From positions 25,062,001 to 25,126,000 of the forward strand of contig NC_090779.1 in assembly GCF_040054535.1 (NCBI RefSeq): a stretch of 64,000 bases of DNA. Direction: 5' to 3'. Shown here piece by piece: positions 1 to 50,504 of this stretch; the stretch's first letter is position 1; the number at the start of each line of letters is the position of its first letter. The stretch comes from Antennarius striatus (lineage: Eukaryota; Chordata; Actinopteri; Lophiiformes; Antennariidae). Position numbers and translations under genes: made by a program. The notes beneath the pieces were generated by a model that saw only the letters and a list, made by a program, of their open reading frames with translations, did not search any database and was not told the origin of the DNA.

Positions 1-111
1 CTGTCTGCGACACGAACCAGGACAGGAGTGAACGATCAGAATCGATCGCGTTGATACGAGCTGACAGGAAATGATTGGTTCTGGTTGGTCGGGGAAACAA
101 ATGTGTGTTAC

Positions 112-2681
112 CGTGCAGTTTGAAGAAAGTCTTGGGATTAAAGTCTGATGGATCCAAACCATCCGTCTCCTTCCACACCTCCTTCAGCTGGTCTTCACTT
201 CCCTGCACACACACACACACACACACACACATCCCATAATAACCCATCTCTGCTGATCTCTTCTTTACTAAATGTAATCTACGTTTACTGGTGGCGTCTC
301 ACAGGGTGGTTGACTTTGGGATGATCGGCGTGTTTCTTTTTCATCTCCTGGTAGTGCTGCTCTTCTTTCCTTCTTTCCTCCTCAGTCATGTTCTTCAGAC
401 GTTCCCTCCTCTCGTGCTCCTTCATCATCTCGTACTGCTTGAACTCATCATGGCGTTCCTTGTCATAGTTCTCCAGGTCATTAGTGGTCTGCAAACGGAG
501 AGAATAAGGTTGAGAAAGATCGTGACTAACATGTGAGACGTTGTCGTGTCATTTCTCCAACTATCTTTGCTGCTTTGTTTAAAATCCCCCCAGGCGATGA
601 AAGTTGACATGCATAATTAATTTTCCTCGGCTGTCTTTCTCGTCACAGAAGACGGATCTGCTGACGCGTCGTTGATGGAGTTACCCCCAACCAAATCAAC
701 AACCTCATCAATCTTCTCACATGACTTCATGTGACTGAGGTGCGATGACGTCCAGGAAACCCTCTTAAAATTTCAAATGTTGAGCGCTACAGTAGGAAAG
801 ATTGTGTCAGATGTGTTTCGTCAGTGCGTTCACCGATTTGATGAGTCGGTCCAGATCCTCGATCTCGAAGGTTTCTGTGTTCTTGTGGTTGAGGTGTTCA
901 AACTGTTTCAGCAGCGCGTGGTGGTCGATGGTCCGGCCTGCAGGGAAGGGAAGTAATCAGTAACTGATAACAGGTGACCTCGTTCTGTCCTTCATGTTAT
1001 CTGCCCCTCCTTTCTTTTTATACAGGAAGTCCTCAAGATATGAACATTCGACTTACGAACATTCATAGATACGAACGTTCGTAGATACGAACGACTGCCT
1101 TTAGTTTCCCTTCCTGCCACAATCCACCACCCAGTAGCGTAACATGAACACCCCATACATTTAGACTTCATGTCATGTCAACATGACTCAGCAGATCTCA
1201 GACTCGGTTTGCTGTGATGTCACTTCCTGTGGTCTCTTTCCTGTTTGTGCCATCTGCAGCGTTTCCTCCTTCTTTTCTCCACATCTCTGTGAACTTATGA
1301 GCGAGAAATGAACCCACAATGCATTTCTGTTCGTGGAGACGTTCACCAACATGTAGACTGGAGATAATTCAGGTCAGGTTGAAAGTTAGAGCAGCAAAGT
1401 AGACGATAGACTACCTGCAAGAAAACTCTGTCCCCACCTGCTGTTAGTTCACATTTATTCATTATGAATAATAAACTAAATGATGGAGGAACCAAAGTTG
1501 TCCTCCTGTAGGAACTAAAAAAATGTAGGAAACAATTTTACTGTTTTACTAGAAGATGTTAACTATTGGTGGATTAACTGAATAACTTAATGAAATGAAA
1601 CACAGGTACATTACGGTACTACAGGATTTTATTATTCTGTGTTGTTTTAATGTCCTATAATTGTTTCTGGACAGTCTTTGGGGATAGAACTTTAGTATTT
1701 AGGGTAGTAATAACATTTAAATGACCTCAAAAGGAGATTATTGATTGAAATAGAATAAATAACGCCTTACAAACAATTCCACTTATGAACAGCCTCTCAG
1801 AACCAGTCGTGTTCATAGGTTGAAGACTACCTGCATGTCTGTCTTGGTGTGTCTTCCAGCAAACTAACTTGAATCTAATCCTATGAAAGGTCACATCTAG
1901 TCTGGTTCCACATCATGTTCCTGCATCAAACATTATTTGGTAAAACTGTATCCAAATATCCGACATATGTAACTTAAAGAAGGGCCGCGTTGCTACGGAC
2001 ACGTGAAGAGGATGCTCACCATCCCCCCGGATGTCGTGTTTAGCTTTTATGAGCATCCGCAGCCTGCCGATCTCCTCCCGCTTCAGCTCGTCCAGTTTGG
2101 TACGAAAGCTGTGGTGGACAAAGTCCAGCTCTTTGGCAAGTTTTCCGTTCTGCAAGGACAAAACCAACATGTCACAGTTCATGTCAACAAAGGTCTTACA
2201 GGATAAATGCCCATTTGGTGATTGTGTGCACACACCTTTATGTCATCTATGTCAGCATTTTTGAGCTTTTCTTTAAAGTGGGGGTCTTTTTCCAGGTATT
2301 GAATCACCTCACTGAGGTAGCGGTCGTAATGCAGTCCACTGTACTGGGAAAAAACAAATCACACAGACGTGGTTGGACCGACCGTGGTTTAAACCCACTA
2401 AAGACCAGAATGAAGAACATCTGGCAAGAAAAACCACGTGACAAAATACAGAAGTACACAAAACGTCATGATCCTGTCCACATGTCCATCTGATGGGAAA
2501 CACTGTGGGTGATGGAGGGTTCCATGTGGTCCCTCTGGAGACTCACAGCAGTCTGTGGTGAATCCAGGTCCTCTGGAGGTTTGTCCTTCGTCTTATCCAC
2601 GCTGATAGGGACCGTCTGGACGCACAACCCCAAACTGAACAGAACCAGCCCACAATGGGCCAAAGCTTTATGCCTCACCAT
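112..2681 (-). CDS. nucb2: Nucleobindin-2 / nesfatin-1 precursor, N-terminal 251 residues (gene continues past the left edge)
   Basis: Coding exons on the minus strand: 2681-2547, 2343-2236, 2149-2020, 937-834, 488-303 and 202-112; all joints are GT-AG and stay in frame (754 nt, ending in phase 1). The start ATG (2681) directly follows a 3' splice site, so the longer upstream reading frame is intronic. Residues 1-23 are a signal peptide; the mature chain begins VPISVDKTK, very like human nesfatin-1. A KR dibasic site at residues 104-105 would release an 80-residue nesfatin-1 (82 in human). Exon 488-303 encodes the basic, Glu-rich region with [13 protein letters not shown], and exon 202-112 ends FFKLHG just before the EF-hands, which lie outside the window. 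The family binds calcium in the Golgi/ER lumen and gives a secreted satiety peptide. The sequence fits NUCB2 rather than NUCB1. Head-to-head with pik3c2a, as in human. Confidence 0.95.
206..231. repeat. (CA)n microsatellite at a nucb2 3' splice site
   Basis: On the gene (minus) strand this is (TG)13 ending directly in CAG, the acceptor of exon 202-112. Confidence 0.95.
1020..1835. mobile_element. Inverted-repeat element in a nucb2 intron
   Basis: The left end TACAGGAAGTCCTCAAGATA (about 1020) and the reverse complement of the right end, TGCAGGTAGTCTTCAACCTA (about 1834), match at most positions through TATGAACA. Between them is AT-rich non-coding DNA. A non-autonomous DNA transposon is likely; target duplication not resolved. 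Confidence 0.5.
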
Positions 2682-2940
2682 CTGAAAAAGACCATAAAAG
2701 AAAGAAAATGTATTAGAATTATGGGCATTATTATTACTATCCTTCATGTAATGATAATACAATCATAGAGCTGCAACATGTAATTTCTGGCAGACCGGGA
2801 GGTCAGCCTTAGAATTTAAAAACGAGGATGCTTCATTTAAGAATTTAGGGATTATTTATCATTTTTATAAAATAAAAATGAGCATTACCTTATAGTATTT
2901 TATTGTACTAAAAATGACGGCCCGCGTCAGAAACACGCAC

Positions 2941-6972: not shown

Positions 6973-28272
<21,300 letters not shown>

Positions 28273-33184: not shown

Positions 33185-34856
33185 GCTTCTTTATGTAGCC
33201 TCATCCAAAAAAACTGGAACGACAATTTTAACAAACAAGAACGTCAATTTTTTTCTGAGCGGTGGTGACTGTGGCACCAGGTGCTCAGGAAGAGAGGAGC
33301 TCCTGGGGAGGAAGGTGAAGTACCAGAGAAGCAGAGGAGAGTTAAAAGTCCTGAAGAACTCACAGTGCTGCTCAGAGTTAAGGGAGCTAAACCGGGGGAC
33401 GCGGGGTTCAAGGCAATCAACCCTTTACAAATTGACACGTCACTACAGAGTCAGATAGGGTTTTGAGGCCAAGATTCTATTTAATGGAGTGTTGAAGATC
33501 AATTGTGTAAATAGAAAGCAGTATGAAGATGCTATCAGCATGGGGAAAGTGGTGACCAAAGTAGAGAAGATAAACTTAACTCCTAAAGGGAATCAAGGCG
33601 TTAAGGGAGTGGTCTATGGAATGTTTGCTGGTATGTCAGAAAAAGAAATACTGGACAACATTAGAGGGGGACAGGTAACAAATGTACGGAGGTTTAAGAG
33701 TAGGGAGGGAGCTGGGGGGGACCCGCCGGTTCTGCTAACATTTGCAGGAACTGAGTTACCAGGGAGAGTTTTTCTTGGTAGTATGGCCTGTCAGGTGAGG
33801 AGGTACGTGAGGCCGTCGCTGCGCTGCTACAACTGTCAAAGGTATGGACATATTGTGGACTCCTGTAGGGGTAAGAAAAGATGTGCAAAGCCATTCCCCC
33901 ATGGGTAATGAATGAGCTAGACATCGAGATGAGTTTTCTTCAGAAGAAAGATAAGAAAGAGATGACAACTAGTGTTCAAATGTATCTTAATTCAATTAGG
34001 GAGAGTAAATTGCTAATATATACAGATGGTTCTAGGGATCCAGATAGTAGGGGAGCTGGGTTTGGGGTCTATGTAGAACAACTTAATTTAAAATGTAGTA
34101 TTAGAATCTCTGATGAAAGCTCTGTGTTCACATCTGAGTTAATGGCACTTCTTTGGGCTTTACGGTGGGTAGAGGAGACAAATGCCAGGGGAGTTGTTAT
34201 CTGCTCCGATTCTGCTGCTGCCCTGGAGGCATCAAAGGGGGGGAAATCTCAAGCTCAATCTGACATTGTACATGAAATCCTGATAGTAATAAATAGAGTA
34301 AGGGTAGGCAGTGACATCTCATTTTGCTGGGTTCCCGGGCACAATGGGATACAGGGTAATGAGCAAGTAGACAGCTTAGCCAAAGAAAGTTTAAATAAGC
34401 AAGTTGTAGAACATCTCCTTTTAGGAAGAGTGGAACTGAGAGGAATAATTAAAGAGGAAATGTCATTATAGTTCAATATCCTGAAGGGACTCTGTTAAAT
34501 TATGGAGGTTGAGGATGGGTCATTGTGGTTTAAATCAGTCTCTATTTATTATAGGAAAGCATGACACAGGTTTATGTCACTGTGGGAGGCCTGAAACAGT
34601 TAAGCATGTGTTCTTAGAATGTCGTCAATACAACAATGAAAGGCTGAGATTATTTATCCAGATGGCAGAACTAGAAGTTCAAGTCTTTTTTATTTCTTCT
34701 TTGTTTGGCCACTGTGAGAACCATCAATTGATTTCCAGAGCAATCTGGACTATATGGAAGAATCTGAAGTAGATTAAAATTACGACCAGTGGAGGGCAGT
34801 AACACGCAGTACATCGTCTACGCTGCCGAAAATTAGAAGAAGAAGAAGAAACTTTT
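33185..34856 (+). mobile_element. Internally deleted non-LTR retrotransposon (I-clade-like LINE) relic
   Basis: Two groups of frames survive. 33281-33466 and 33489-33895 carry an ORF1/gag-like protein with a CCHC knuckle (CYNCQRYGHIVDSC). After a junction near 33890, 33881-34471 carries an RNase H domain: YTDGSRD, SELMALLWALRW, CSDSAAALEA and WVPGHNGIQGNEQVD supply the acidic residues and the late motif. Then 34509-34772 shows the Cys/His tail CHCGRPETVKHVFLEC. Endonuclease and almost all reverse transcriptase are missing, so the copy cannot move by itself. ORF1 has a frameshift and there is a stop between the RNase H and the tail. The 3' end is an AGA/AGAAG repeat at about 34840-34856. RNase H plus CCHC gag fits the I/Nimb group; the exact family is uncertain. 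The 5' end is approximate. Confidence 0.85.
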
Positions 34857-34940: not shown

Positions 34941-39276
<4,336 letters not shown>

Positions 39277-39823
39277 ACTCTACATACTTTGGATTAATAA
39301 AACAATTTGAATTGTAAAGTGTCCAGGTGTCTAATTTTTTTTTTTTTAAATGTGTATGTAGGGAAAGTTTATTGATCATCCAAGCGTGAAGGATTGGCTC
39401 ACATGAGTTTTTCCATTTTTGAATCGTGTTTATTATGAATGATGCAATCCACCCACCTCTCATTGGTCCATGAACATGAAACAAAAACACTTGAGGGGGT
39501 CAAACTGAAAGACCACCCCCCCCCCCCCCCACCCCAAAAAATCACTTTCTGTTTAATTTGACTCTTTTAAAAAATTTCCATCTTTTTATTCTCCAGTCGT
39601 TTATTTTGAGCCGTTCCCGGATCTGTCTGGGGTTTTCTGGTAGCTGTAGTAATTTCCATGCGTCATCCATTTCGTAATACGTGGGCGTGCTTTGTGGCAC
39701 GTAAGGGAGGCGGGAGCCCTGATGAATGACATCTGTCTCGACCAATCAGAGCGCCGCCTAACGTCACGAGCGTTTATTTCAGCGGTCTGGTGTAGCCGGA
39801 GCGTCACATTCACTCCTACTACG
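39277..39823. other. rps13 3' end and ppp1r15 promoter region
   Basis: After the rps13 poly(A) signal the DNA is simple (T-run at 39337, C-run at about 39517). From 39700 it becomes promoter-like: TGATGAATG (about 39720) resembles an ATF4/CHOP response element, CCAAT lies in GACCAATCAGAG (about 39740), and ACGTCACG (about 39762) is a CRE-like site. These fit a stress-inducible gene, but function is inferred. Confidence 0.45.
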
Positions 39824-39874
39824 ATGAAGACGACACAGCGGAGCAACATGGCGCACACTGAACGGCACGTTTGA
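39824..39874 (+). CDS. uORF1 of ppp1r15 mRNA (16 codons)
   Basis: ATG at 39824 opens a frame that closes at TGA 39872-39874, 176 nt before the main start. It is presumed to be in the 5'UTR. Short uORFs are a known device of PPP1R15 mRNAs for stress-dependent translation. Confidence 0.45.
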   Translation: MKTTQRSNMAHTERHV

Positions 39875-39889: not shown

Positions 39890-39997
39890 ATGGAGCACAT
39901 TTACCAGAAGATGAAGCGACAACTTACTGACGAAAGTCTGTCACTGACAAATCAGCGAAATTTGTTGGTTTTTGACGAGGAATACCAGAATACGTGA
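39890..39997 (+). CDS. uORF2 of ppp1r15 mRNA (35 codons)
   Basis: ATG at 39890, with purine at -3 and G at +4 (good Kozak context), reads 35 codons to TGA at 39995-39997, 53 nt before the main ATG. Second of two tandem uORFs. The encoded peptide has no recognised domain. Confidence 0.5.
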   Translation: MEHIYQKMKRQLTDESLSLTNQRNLLVFDEEYQNT

Positions 39998-40049: not shown

Positions 40050-40323
40050 ATGGCTACGACCGTTGGTGCCGCCGAGGCTCCGGAGCGGACGGCGATGGAG
40101 AGATTCGGTACCGGAGGGCTGGCGCTGCTGCCGTGGACCCGACAGATGCTGACCGTGTTGTGGGAGCAGTTCCGGCTGCTGATGAGCGTCATTTACTACA
40201 CCTTCATGTCCGGTAAGAGCCCCAACGGCCGCGAACGGTGGTGCGTTTACGGCCCCTCGGACCGTTAAAGTACTCATTTCTAGGTAATGGAAATCCACAA
40301 TATCAACCCGTCACGTATCGCGG

Positions 40324-40385
<62 letters not shown>

Positions 40386-42569
40386 AGACAATGGCCGCTC
40401 TCGTTCTTTTTATTTTTTTATTTTATATACTTGATTAATCCCCGGTTATATAAAGTTTTGATCCACTTGTTGGATTTCTGTCCGCTTTGAGCCCCTCGGT
40501 TTGAAGGAGATGAATTTCAGGTTTTGCTGCTTTTATTGTCGTGAAAACAATGAATTTTTGTTCTAATCGAACTGCATTCTCTTGATTTTCCAGTTTTCCA
40601 GATGTTCCGGTTCGAGGTCCACGTCCGGATCACGGATGACATCCAGCACATGGGCGCCGCTGCTAACCCCACCGAGTCCTTCCTGTTCTCCTCCTTGTTC
40701 GACGGAGAAAACGCCGTGATGGTTGGAGGTTCCAATCCCCTCTCCAACTTCTGCGGGGAAGTGGGCGACCCGTTCGCCGGGAAGTCCACGGCGGAGGCCC
40801 TGCTGTCCAGCCTGCGCGCCGACGACCTGTGTTGTGGGCTGGTGGACGACTTTGTGTCCCGAACCACCGGGAGCGAAGACGGGATCTTTCGGGGACACCA
40901 CTCCAGCTGGAAGATGGGTTTCCCCGGCGACTGGAACATCTTCGTCTCAAGCGGCGAGGCGGCCAGTTCGGACGACTCGTGTCACAGAGGTGGTGAGAAA
41001 GTCTTCAAGCAGGACGCTTCGGAGGAGGACCGGAGCTCCAGCTGGAGCAGCGAGGAGGACCAGAACCTGGCTGAGTTCGACAGCGAGGAAAGCAAAGCAC
41101 TCTGGGAGTCCCTGTCCAGATCCAGCGATCCCTACAACCCCTTCTTTTTCTCAGCTTGCATCTCAACCAACGCCAACATGGGGAAGAGCGAACGAGAGGC
41201 GGCGGACGATGTCGATGATGTGTCTGTCACAAAGGTCGGCGAGGCCCCGGGGCCCCCGGGTCTGAACTTCTGGGTCAGCCGCTCCGACAGCGAGAACAGT
41301 TGGAGCAGCTGGGCGGGGTCCGACGGGTCGGCCCCTGACGTCGACGAGGACAACGAGCGGCTCCTGGAGCTGTTCAGCAGCGCCGACCCGTACAACCCCC
41401 TGTGCTTCACCGCCAGCCGAGGCAGCGGCGCAGCGGAGAGACCCACCTCCACGCTGCGGGCCCCGCTTCCTGTCGCCGAGGAAGAGGAAGTCAGCCCCCA
41501 GCCTTCGTCTGAGGAAGATGACGAGGAAGAGGAGCAGCTGTGGAAATCCCTCTGCTCGACAGATGACCCATACCACCCCCTTAACTTCAAGGCGTGCCTC
41601 CAGACCTCGGCGCCCCCCCGGTGTGAGGAGCATCCAGACGCCACGGATGTTGACGGGGCGAAAAACTCACAAAAAAAGTACCAAAAATGTCAAAAGGAGG
41701 CTCGAACGCCTAAAATGTCACAAGTCACCAAACCCCCCCTGCAGGACAGACACTCCACCAAACCCCCCCTGCAGGAGAGATGCGTCAAGAGTCACGCCCA
41801 CCCAGAAATGACACAGGTGCCCTGGATCCGACCTGGACGGACACCCAAGACCCCTCCACAGGGGGACGGCACGGCTGCCCCAAAAAAGGTGAGTTTCTAA
41901 CACACCTTTACTGTGATGTCATCACAACACTTGTGATGTCATCACAGCGTCTCTGATGTCATCACACCCTGGTACTTGAGGGTGGTGTTTAAGGAGAGAT
42001 GACACCTTTAGGGCCTGTGGTAAACGTGGATTCCTCAACGAACGCTCACCGCTCTGTAGATGAGTTGTTGTTTGTTGTTGCTTAGCGACGCTGCTGGTTG
42101 CCATGACTAAGCGGGTCATGTGGTTCCTGTGAGTCAGCAGAGCGCTTTAGAGCCACATGGCCTGAACTAGGCTGTCGGTTTATTTCTGTTCTTTACATCA
42201 GACCCTGACAGGAAGTCGGTTTTATTCTGATGATGCATTGCGTTGGGAAGCCACACCTTCTCCGTGTCGACCAATCACAGTCGCCGGTGACTCGGCACAT
42301 AACTGACCTTTACTCTTCTTTCTCCCGAACAGGTGCGGTTTTCTCCTCTCGTCCACGTCCACGTCATGCGGTCCTGGACGTTCGCTCAGCAGGCGTCTCG
42401 CAAAGGACCCTGGGAAGAGATGGCGCGGGACCGGGACCGCTTCCGCCGGCGGATCCAGGCGGCGGAGCGAGCCATCGGTTACTGCCTGGCGCCGTCACAC
42501 AGGGAGAGCGCGCGGATGTACGCGGATGGTTCCTCGAAGCGGCAGGAAGTCCCGGACGCTGAGCGTTGA
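40050..42569 (+). CDS. ppp1r15b: Protein phosphatase 1 regulatory subunit 15, B-like (eIF2-alpha phosphatase targeting subunit)
   Basis: Three coding exons, 40050-40212, 40594-41888 and 42333-42569, give 564 residues. The family recruits PP1 to dephosphorylate eIF2-alpha and end the integrated stress response. Residues ~22-60 form a hydrophobic/amphipathic segment that fits ER attachment. Three acidic repeats of type LW.SL...DPYNP..F.A occur near residues 233, 319 and 379, typical of PPP1R15B. The PP1-docking motif KVRF is at 486-489 and is split by the last intron (K|VRF). The C-terminal block has [17 protein letters not shown] with Trp513 and Phe523, matching the substrate and actin contacts of PPP1R15A. 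KVRF-to-Trp spacing (27) equals remembered human PPP1R15A, while the repeats and AIGYCL fit PPP1R15B, so A/B assignment is open. Poly(A) signals at 42879 and 43054. Confidence 0.9.
40325..40383 (+). repeat. (TG)n microsatellite in ppp1r15 intron 1
   Basis: Perfect TG run of about 59 bp. Confidence 0.95.
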
Positions 42570-43542
42570 ACTTCCTGTGCGGATGAGGACTCCTGATTGG
42601 TTGCAATGCAACAGTGATTTTGATCTAGACCAATTAGAAATGTGAAGTTAGGCCTTTTATCTGTTGTTTTTTACCGTTGTCCAGCTGAACAACGTTGTAC
42701 CTCAGACGGTTTCTATGGCGACTGTTGCACTGACTGACACTTTGTTCTACTAACCTCAGCAGTAACGTGTGGAATGTTTTTTTTATGCCTTACTCACTGA
42801 CGAGCCGGTAATGTACCTGATTTCTGGCCTCTGGATGTCGTTTGTTTACCTGTTTACTACTTAAATGTTTTACGTGTGAATAAATAACGCTGGTGTCTCT
42901 AGAAGCTGACGTGAGAAACCGGGGTGATACTGAGACGTGATTCATAAATTTGCTTCCTGGCGGCGCCGTCGGACGAATGAAACGTCTGGTTCTGTCACGG
43001 TTTCTCACCACAAAGCGTCTGTAGCAGATTTATGTGAGGTGCTTTGTCAAATCAATAAACTTGATCACCACGACTCATCGATCTCTGATCTTTAATTCGT
43101 CTTCGTCGCTCTGGTGGTGAAGACGAGTTCACGTCTGGTTTAAGCCAGTGTAACAAATATGAAGACAAGCGGGTTTGTGTTGATGTCTGTAAACAACCTG
43201 AGGTCAACAAGCAGTCTGACCCCCCCCCGACCCCCTCAAACCCGTACGAACCTTTATTTAGTGAATCAGTTGTAAACATATTTATGTTTTTCGCTTTTTA
43301 CCACTTCCTGTCGGGGCGGCGGCTTTCACTTTATTTTCTTTTCATGATCAAATTCTTTAAACACTAAAACTAGACGGTCTGGTGTGGGGCGTGGGGTTCT
43401 GACTGAGGGCTCCATGCTTTAGCTGGGGGGGCGCTGATGGCAGCGCCACATTAATCCAGTCCATTAAAACCACTTATCAGCCCGTTTTTTTAATTGTAGA
43501 TAATTCTCATATATTTACATTCATGCAATTATCTTCTCTCTG

Positions 43543-49047: not shown

Positions 49048-49542
49048 ATGGCGGCGACTCTCGGGCGGGACACCTTACCTGAGGGCTGGTCCTACGGGGT
49101 CTGCGGGGACGGGAGAGTCTTCTTCATCGAGTGAGTTGACGACCGGAGCGGTTCGCGGCTCCGCGGGTCGCTTTAACGGGAGTTGTGTGCCGGTGCTTTC
49201 CTCCCCGGTGGTGTAACAGGTGTCTTCTCTCCCCTCTGGCCGCGCGGCAGCGACCAGACGCGGACGACCACCTGGCTGCATCCCCGCTCCGGTGAACCGG
49301 TCAACTCCGGACACATGATCCGCTCAGGTGAGCTAGCTACGGGAGCTAGGTGTGCTCCGGACCCGGGATCAACCCGGGATCACTTTATCATGATTATTAT
49401 CGGTGCCAAGTTGGTGCGTTCGAGGCCCGGTCCGGGGGGGGGGGAGTTCAGGTGTGACCAGATGTGTGTTGTGGTGTTTTTCAGATCTACCCCGCGGGTG
49501 GGAGGAAGGCTTCACGGACGCGGGGGCCAGTTTCTTCATCAA
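49048..49542 (+). CDS. plekha7: PLEKHA7, first three coding exons (tandem WW domains); gene continues beyond the window
   Basis: Exons 49048-49130, 49251-49327 and 49485-49542 join in frame (218 nt, phase 2 at the end). The protein begins MAATLGRDTLPEGWSYGV, close to human PLEKHA7. WW1 has Trp14 and Trp36; WW2 begins LPRGWEEGF (Trp59) and breaks off at SFFI, so its second half is in the next exon, which I could not find up to 64000. PLEKHA7 is an adherens-junction protein that binds p120-catenin and, through its WW domains, PDZD11. The PH domain and coiled coil lie outside the window. The start at 49048 was chosen because it aligns with human. Position after rps13 and pik3c2a agrees with human 11p15 order. 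Confidence 0.93.
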
Positions 49543-50148
49543 GTAAGGAGAGGGTGTTATTACTGCGTATACGTGGGGCTCAATATGGCTCCTAATGCCT
49601 AATTACCACCGGGGGGAAGGTGGGGGGCAGTTCGGATTTACGCGGGGTGTTAACGGGACTAGCCTGACCCTAGAATGACCCCATTCACTGCTAGCTGTTA
49701 TTGTTATTTTTGTTATTTAACGCTTATTTACAGTGTAACCGTCTACGGTTGAACACACGCACCTGTAGAGTTGTTAATGAACTTATTACACACAGAATAT
49801 TTTTTAATTTTAATACGATTGTGTAATCTGTGAAGAAACTCGAGGTTTGTCTTGTTAAAAGCTGGCTAGCTGCCGTTTATTATAACATACGAGTTATTTA
49901 TAACACTGTATAACTCTCTAAGTTTGAACAAAGACACCTGTAAAGTTGTCATTAACTTATCCACACACATGAGTTCATATTTTAATAAGGTTGTGTAAAG
50001 TTTTGTTCAGAAATTAGAGGTTTATCTCGTTAATTGCTAGCTAGCTGCTATTTGTTCTTGTTTTTTTTTTATGGCGGATGTGAACGCCTCTGCCGCCCCC
50101 CTCTGGTGGAAACGGTGAATTACACCCAAATAGGCTTTTTAACAGTAA

Positions 50149-50504
50149 TTCATTCATTGTCACATGACCACCGCTATATCTGCCGCAGCGGGTCACGGGG
50201 AGCTGGAGCCTATCCCAGTGGCATAGGGCGTGAGGCAGGGGACACTCCGGGCACGACGCCAGTGCACCACGGAGCCACACACAAAGACAGACAACCACTC
50301 ACACACACACTCACTCCTACGGGCAATTTGGGACCGGCCAATCAACCTGAAGCGCATGCTTTTGGAGGTGGGAGGAAGCGGAGAACCCGGAGAGAACCCA
50401 CGCAGACACGGGGAGAGCATGCGAACTCCGCACAGAGCGGGACTCGAACCCGGGTCCGCCGTGTTGCGAGGCGGCAGTGCTACCCACTGCGCCACCGTGC
50501 CGCC
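50149..50504 (-). mobile_element. tRNA-derived SINE with perfect 14-bp target-site duplication
   Basis: Read on the minus strand, the element starts at 50504 with GGGCGGCACGGTGGCGCAG, has an A box TGGCGCAGTGGGTA (50494-50481) and a B box GGTTCGAGTC (50450-50441), then the body with GGTTCTCTCCGGGTTCTCC and GGCTCCAGCTCCCCGTGACC, and a (AATG)n-type tail at 50149. CTTTTTAACAGTAA flanks it on both sides (50135-50148 and 50505-50518). The tRNA-like head is part of the SINE and not a tRNA gene. Confidence 0.9.

Follow-up and report, generated by a model that had tools for sequence, protein, structure and literature searches.

The 64,000-nucleotide stretch of Antennarius striatus DNA analysed here (the window, which lies on contig C4 of the genome) carries a complete ppp1r15-like gene that we read, with a probability of roughly 0.78, as a third vertebrate PPP1R15, that is, as the 2R ohnologue belonging to the NUCB2-PIK3C2A-RPS13-PLEKHA7 (human 11p15) member of a paralogous quartet, closest to PPP1R15A (15A, or GADD34) in core spacing and kept in a fish where no nucb1-linked 15A was found. 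Two things are present together in this genome, namely the nucb2-pik3c2a-plekha7 position of the window gene and a separate PPP1R15B (15B, or CReP) elsewhere. The choice between an ohnologue and a true 15A orthologue is made here by synteny and not by sequence, and the 2R date is one that we infer. Since land vertebrates reportedly lost the PPP1R15 in this type of neighbourhood, the window gene probably stands to human GADD34 as a sister and not as its direct counterpart.

The Plekha7-Ppp1r15 linkage as such is not new, since PMC8983885 (section 12) reports a gene next to Plekha7, labelled 'Ppp1r15b', in Chondrichthyes and Actinopterygii, i.e. the same linkage in cartilaginous and ray-finned fish; in coelacanths and tetrapods it is reported as lost, which is the ground on which the 'lost in mammals' of a first-pass annotation of this DNA now stands. 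The consulted part of that paper sets out parallel blocks (Plekha7-Ppp1r15b, Plekha6-Ppp1r15b and Plekha4-Ppp1r15a; Plekha7-Pik3c2a and Plekha6-Pik3c2b; Plekha7-Nucb2 and Plekha4-Nucb1), and section 12 names no third family member. Excerpts of two kisspeptin papers (PMC3530029, PMC4015844) place PPP1R15 in the same tetra-paralogon with two members, and those of a recent review (PMC10743859) likewise count two vertebrate genes, GADD34 and CReP. In the literature surveyed, mostly at listing level, we found no naming of a third member; 'PPP1R15C' occurs once, in an extract where it is a qPCR primer name paired with PPP1R14C_F, evidently a misprint. New here are (i) that the window gene is not 15B, (ii) the failure to find a nucb1-linked 15A in this fish and (iii) a chimeric retrocopy on contig C11.

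A complete gene between rps13 and plekha7

The gene lies on the forward strand, with its ATG at 40050 and the end of its stop codon at 42569, and encodes 564 aa in three exons with GT-AG introns, rebuilt from the DNA. Exon 1 (40050..40212) holds the start codon and a hydrophobic N-terminal segment, spotted by eye, which by analogy with the family may be an ER-membrane helix. Exon 2 (40594..41888) encodes an acidic stretch in which DPYNP occurs twice and DPYHP once, and its final KK precedes a phase-0 intron, while exon 3 (42333..42569, stop codon 42567-42569) opens with VRF and encodes the putative PP1-, G-actin- and eIF2alpha-binding core. The protein matches the Pfam family PF10488 (PP1c_bdg) at E=1.4e-28, and its score of 100.6 bits, against a curated cut-off of 26.1, means that the match is not due to chance. 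A pseudogene or a chance ORF is excluded by this match and by the intact gene structure, and the first-pass view of a complete ppp1r15-like gene in this place is confirmed.

Six ATGs were scanned 5' of the gene, and two putative leader ORFs stand out on the same strand. The first (39824..39874, 16 aa) is in a frame different from that of the main start, with further ATGs at 39722 and 39726 and a nested one at 39848; the second (39890..39997, 35 aa) has a GCAATGG start context and a nested ATG at 39911, and ends 52 nt 5' of the main ATG. They would fit the uORF control that is described for both GADD34 and CReP (PMC10743859, in excerpt).

The protein is mixed, as had been noticed at first sight: its DPYNP repeats and an AIGYCL stretch lean to 15B, and its core spacing leans to 15A, as does, in the present analysis, its PhiPhi pair. 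The distance from KVRF to Trp is 27 residues and that from KVRF to Phe 37, which are the human 15A values, as against 22 and 32 in human 15B and 25 and 35 in the fish's own 15B (on contig C5), so that the 'about 22 to Trp' first given for 15B is the human value and does not hold for the 15B of this fish. The PhiPhi pair (Val564-His565) is common to the window core and human 15A and occurs in neither 15B, where Glu-Tyr or Glu-Ile take its place. At the position of human W616, the window gene has Arg, its copy on C11 Gln and both 15B genes Phe; the searched text of PMC8500838 holds no W616. Residues V556, F558, R578, W582, F592, R595 and R612 are retained, as are R587, R591 and R594, and with them the predicted PP1-binding and selectivity features (RVxF motif, R578, W582), G-actin contacts (F592, R595, R612) and eIF2alpha contacts (R587, R591, R594). 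These roles are taken from parts of PMC5429092 (PP1 binding and PP1/actin alignment) and PMC8500838 (actin and eIF2alpha contacts). The RARA motif of GADD34 (612-615; PMC10743859, in excerpt) is RESA in the alignment of the window gene.

The order in the window is nucb2, pik3c2a, rps13, ppp1r15, plekha7. Pieces of nucb2 (92..2690, reverse strand) were matched by Pfam NUCB1_N and by tblastx to copies on C1 and C16; pik3c2a occupies approximately 6973..28269 on the forward strand, with its start codon at about 6973. We take the next gene to be rps13, of which the 3' part (36449..39276, forward strand) ends in exons at 38786-38886 and 39243-39276, and the last to be plekha7, represented by WW-domain exons at about 49048..49543 (forward strand); the 10 kb that follow the window showed no PH-domain exon of plekha7 by motif, so that plekha4 and plekha6 could not be placed. 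The last rps13 intron contains a SNORA19 H/ACA snoRNA (38997-39127; Rfam RF00413, 101.4 bits), and ORFs at 33459-34769 presumably belong to a non-LTR retrotransposon with an RNase H-like stretch. An ORF at 50227 with a tblastn match to C5 was left unused; a similar stretch is found on C11 too, so that this match looks like a repeat.

On the human map, as assumed here, PPP1R15A lies near NUCB1 and PLEKHA4 on 19q13 and PPP1R15B near PIK3C2B and PLEKHA6 on 1q32, and 11p15 holds NUCB2, PIK3C2A, RPS13 and PLEKHA7 without a PPP1R15. The window gene, whose neighbours are nucb2, pik3c2a and plekha7, thus fails the 15A linkage (nucb1/plekha4) and, since the pik3c2b-like gene belongs to the C5 copy, that of 15B as well.

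Other PPP1R15 copies in the same genome

Searching the genome (548 Mb, 42 contigs) with PF10488 gave five matches at three loci, on C4 (the window gene), C5 and C11, with 10 candidates scored, and the window core, used as a protein query at E<=10, led to the same three (3 candidates). No fourth locus was found at E<=10 in these genome searches, carried out exon by exon on the best candidates. A genome search for PI3K_C2 gave 13 matches, one of them at C5:25641052 beside the C5 ppp1r15, and none in the window despite its pik3c2a; because this gene was overlooked, the absence of a fourth PPP1R15 is not proven, and we regard it as likely.

On C5, the copy is a canonical 15B: a 274-residue piece reaches 72.6 bits with human 15B and 36.5 with 15A, and the gene has in common with the window gene the phase-0 intron KK|VRF. 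Some 3 kb upstream of it lies a class II PI3-kinase gene of the same strand, in the order and orientation of pik3c2a and ppp1r15 in the window, and 504 of 832 aligned columns are identical between the two kinases over 18 kept pieces. When the joined pieces of each kinase are compared with the PIK3C2A structure 7bi2, those from the window reach 1085.7 bits and those from C5 805.9, which makes the window kinase pik3c2a and the C5 kinase a different paralogue of class II. The best 60 PDB rows included no PIK3C2B structure; we take the N-terminus of the C5 kinase to be that of PIK3C2B. The surroundings of the C5 copy did not yield Plekha6: of ten ORFs searched there against Pfam, seven matched the families Isy1, PP2C, HLH, KCNQ, helicase, 7tm and Ig, three matched nothing, and none was plekha6. 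The N-terminal frame of the C5 15B (C5:25629100-25632000, L015/L016) is broken by a run of ten G, possibly an assembly error.

Two further regions could hold more copies. C1 has a second plekha7 start (19440490-19440936) and, some 4 kb from it, another nucb2, whose first matched exon is at about 19444726; this region (C1:19440490-19447000, partly L029) is the probable teleost-duplication (3R) sister of the window. The best ppp1r15 match in the 10 kb read there has E=2.2, with no PF10488 match elsewhere on the contig, and neither pik3c2a nor rps13 was matched in the same 10 kb. Nine TEA-domain matches, which occur on C4 (two places), C1, C2 and C5 (one place each), agree with a sister relation between C4 and C1.

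Of the nucb copies, the third, on C16, resembles the window nucb2 least (tblastx 1.7e-72, vs 5e-99 for that of C1). A glycogen synthase (gys) gene lies 8 Mb away on the same contig, and a liprin-like ORF beside the nucb, which matched nothing in a PDB search, is presumably PPFIA3. We regard the nucb1 (19q13) region as the best interpretation of this locus. A check of synteny near nucb1 in the same fish had been proposed, and it found no PPP1R15 at this nucb1-like gene: the best match in the 10 kb read has E=1.4, and PF10488 has no match on C16. No nucb1-linked 15A was thus found in this fish.

Third ohnologue or displaced orthologue

A tree of five cores (window, C5, C11, human 15A and human 15B; the human ones from PDB fragments), computed under the LG model with 200 bootstraps, unrooted and without an outgroup, joins C5 with human 15B at 96 and the window gene with C11 at 98, and places human 15A between them. 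The window gene is therefore outside the 15B pair, and in an unrooted tree of five sequences a sister relation to 15A does not follow. Core identities are 31/66 between the window gene and human 15A, 31/63 with human 15B and 29/66 with C5, vs 39/65 between C5 and human 15B.

These data bear most directly on the idea that the window gene is a 15B orthologue, either relocated or a second copy from the teleost (3R) duplication. Its DPYNP repeats and AIGYCL are those of 15B, and the label in PMC8983885 (section 12) agrees, but the fish has a separate 15B beside a pik3c2b-like gene on C5, this one joins human 15B in the tree, and the window gene has pik3c2a and nucb2 as neighbours, with the 3R sister region on C1. 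We reject this reading as very unlikely.

The other possibility concerning a known member, that a true PPP1R15A orthologue moved from the plekha4/nucb1 region into that of plekha7, we consider improbable, with rather more to be said for it: the 27/37 spacing and the Val-His pair are as in human 15A, and no second 15A-like locus came up in the genome searches. Against it, RARA is not retained, Ppp1r15 adjoins Plekha7 in cartilaginous fish too (PMC8983885, section 12), and pik3c2 and ppp1r15 have the order and orientation seen at C5, so that no move is required. A further alternative is a separate small-scale duplication within fish whose product reached this position by chance. A single genome does not date the duplication, but the matching neighbours in paralogous regions and the presence reported in cartilaginous fish (in the same section) make this alternative very unlikely.

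The ohnologue reading, first proposed from the sequence of the window, is hence supported by synteny, by a C5 15B about 3 kb from its pik3c2b-like gene and by the tree, which leaves the window gene outside the 15B pair. What had been named beforehand as refuting it, a genome with no other 15B near pik3c2b together with a firm place of the window gene inside 15A or 15B, is not what was found. Against it stand the core, about equally identical to human 15A and 15B; the PDB matches, which are close (48.7 bits for the human PPP1R15A chain 7nzm vs 43.8 for PPP1R15B 4v0u, phmmer); RESA instead of RARA and Arg at the W616 position; and the missing Plekha6 near C5.

Proposed function

The window protein most likely works as the known PPP1R15 members do. 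The putative N-terminal helix would keep it attached to the ER, and PP1 would be held by the C-terminal core through its RVxF, PhiPhi and Arg motifs. The helix after the Trp would then present one face to G-actin and the other to the beta-barrel of eIF2alpha, from which PP1 would remove the Ser51 phosphate, ending the integrated stress response and switching protein synthesis back on. Upon eIF2alpha phosphorylation, the upstream ORFs may raise translation, as is described for GADD34 and CReP.

With human GADD34 (7nzm_C, 4xpn_B), the window gene shares the KVRF core, the Val-His pair, the 27/37 spacing, the actin- and eIF2alpha-contact residues and upstream ORFs, and it differs from it in RESA for RARA and in its linkage to plekha7, pik3c2a and nucb2 instead of nucb1 and plekha4. 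GADD34 is not known to have the DPYNP repeats that the window gene has. With CReP (human 4v0u and 9hvf; fish C5), it shares these repeats, AIGYCL (human 15B), the KK|VRF intron (fish 15B) and a same-strand upstream pik3c2 gene, and it departs from CReP in its KVRF-to-Trp distance, its Val-His pair and its position outside the 15B pair of the tree.

Should fish have retained a third ohnologue instead of 15A, genes annotated in them as 'ppp1r15a' or as a second 'ppp1r15b' might not be orthologous to their human namesakes, a misassignment that would bear on fish studies of the integrated stress response or of GADD34-directed drugs. The quartet also lets one ask in which of the ohnologues stress inducibility was retained.

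A retrocopy on C11 with a predicted chimeric product

The C11 copy is, by its DNA, an intronless retrocopy of the window gene. Window positions 41226-41891 (73% similarity) and 42324-42693 (77%) adjoin end to end there (L003:865-1855), so that intron 2 is missing. An exon with a Dpy-30 motif (PF05186, 1.8e-11), which a genome-wide family search also places at C11:16733058, lies 1340 bases before the retrocopy exon, and a GTAAGA donor and a TTGCAG acceptor would join them (L026:9273-9419 to L003:760-1722, from C11:16733058 onward) into a predicted in-frame product of 369 residues that contains the DPY30 motif, a short coiled stretch and the PPP1R15 repeats and core. We take the host gene to be dydc-like (DYDC1/2).

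For the retro part compared with the window gene, dN/dS is 0.206/0.539 = 0.38 (NG86), 0.208/0.474 = 0.44 (LWL85) or 0.222/0.458 = 0.48 (YN00), and for the core it is 0.156/0.594 = 0.26 (NG86 only). In 3000 neutral simulations from the window sequence (substitutions only, no frameshifts, the window gene standing in for the ancestor), the frame stayed stop-free in 0.1% of runs at 0.27 substitutions per site and in 4.6% at 0.1. Constraint on the chimera is suggested and not proved, since both branches contribute to a pairwise ratio and the window gene serves as an approximation of the ancestor.

It is possible, at somewhat less than even odds, that an mRNA of the window gene was reverse-transcribed into a dydc-like gene on C11, that a new kind of protein arose in this way, a chimera which, if translated, would carry a stress-ending phosphatase to the sites of DPY30-domain partners (e.g. 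in cilia or in the flagella of sperm), and that in this fish the role of GADD34 falls to an ohnologue and not to the orthologue. A literature search for a DYDC-PPP1R15 fusion returned nothing relevant in the best 8 of 289. The chimera would test the effect of aiming the phosphatase core elsewhere. Dpy-30 motifs occur at eight other places in this genome.
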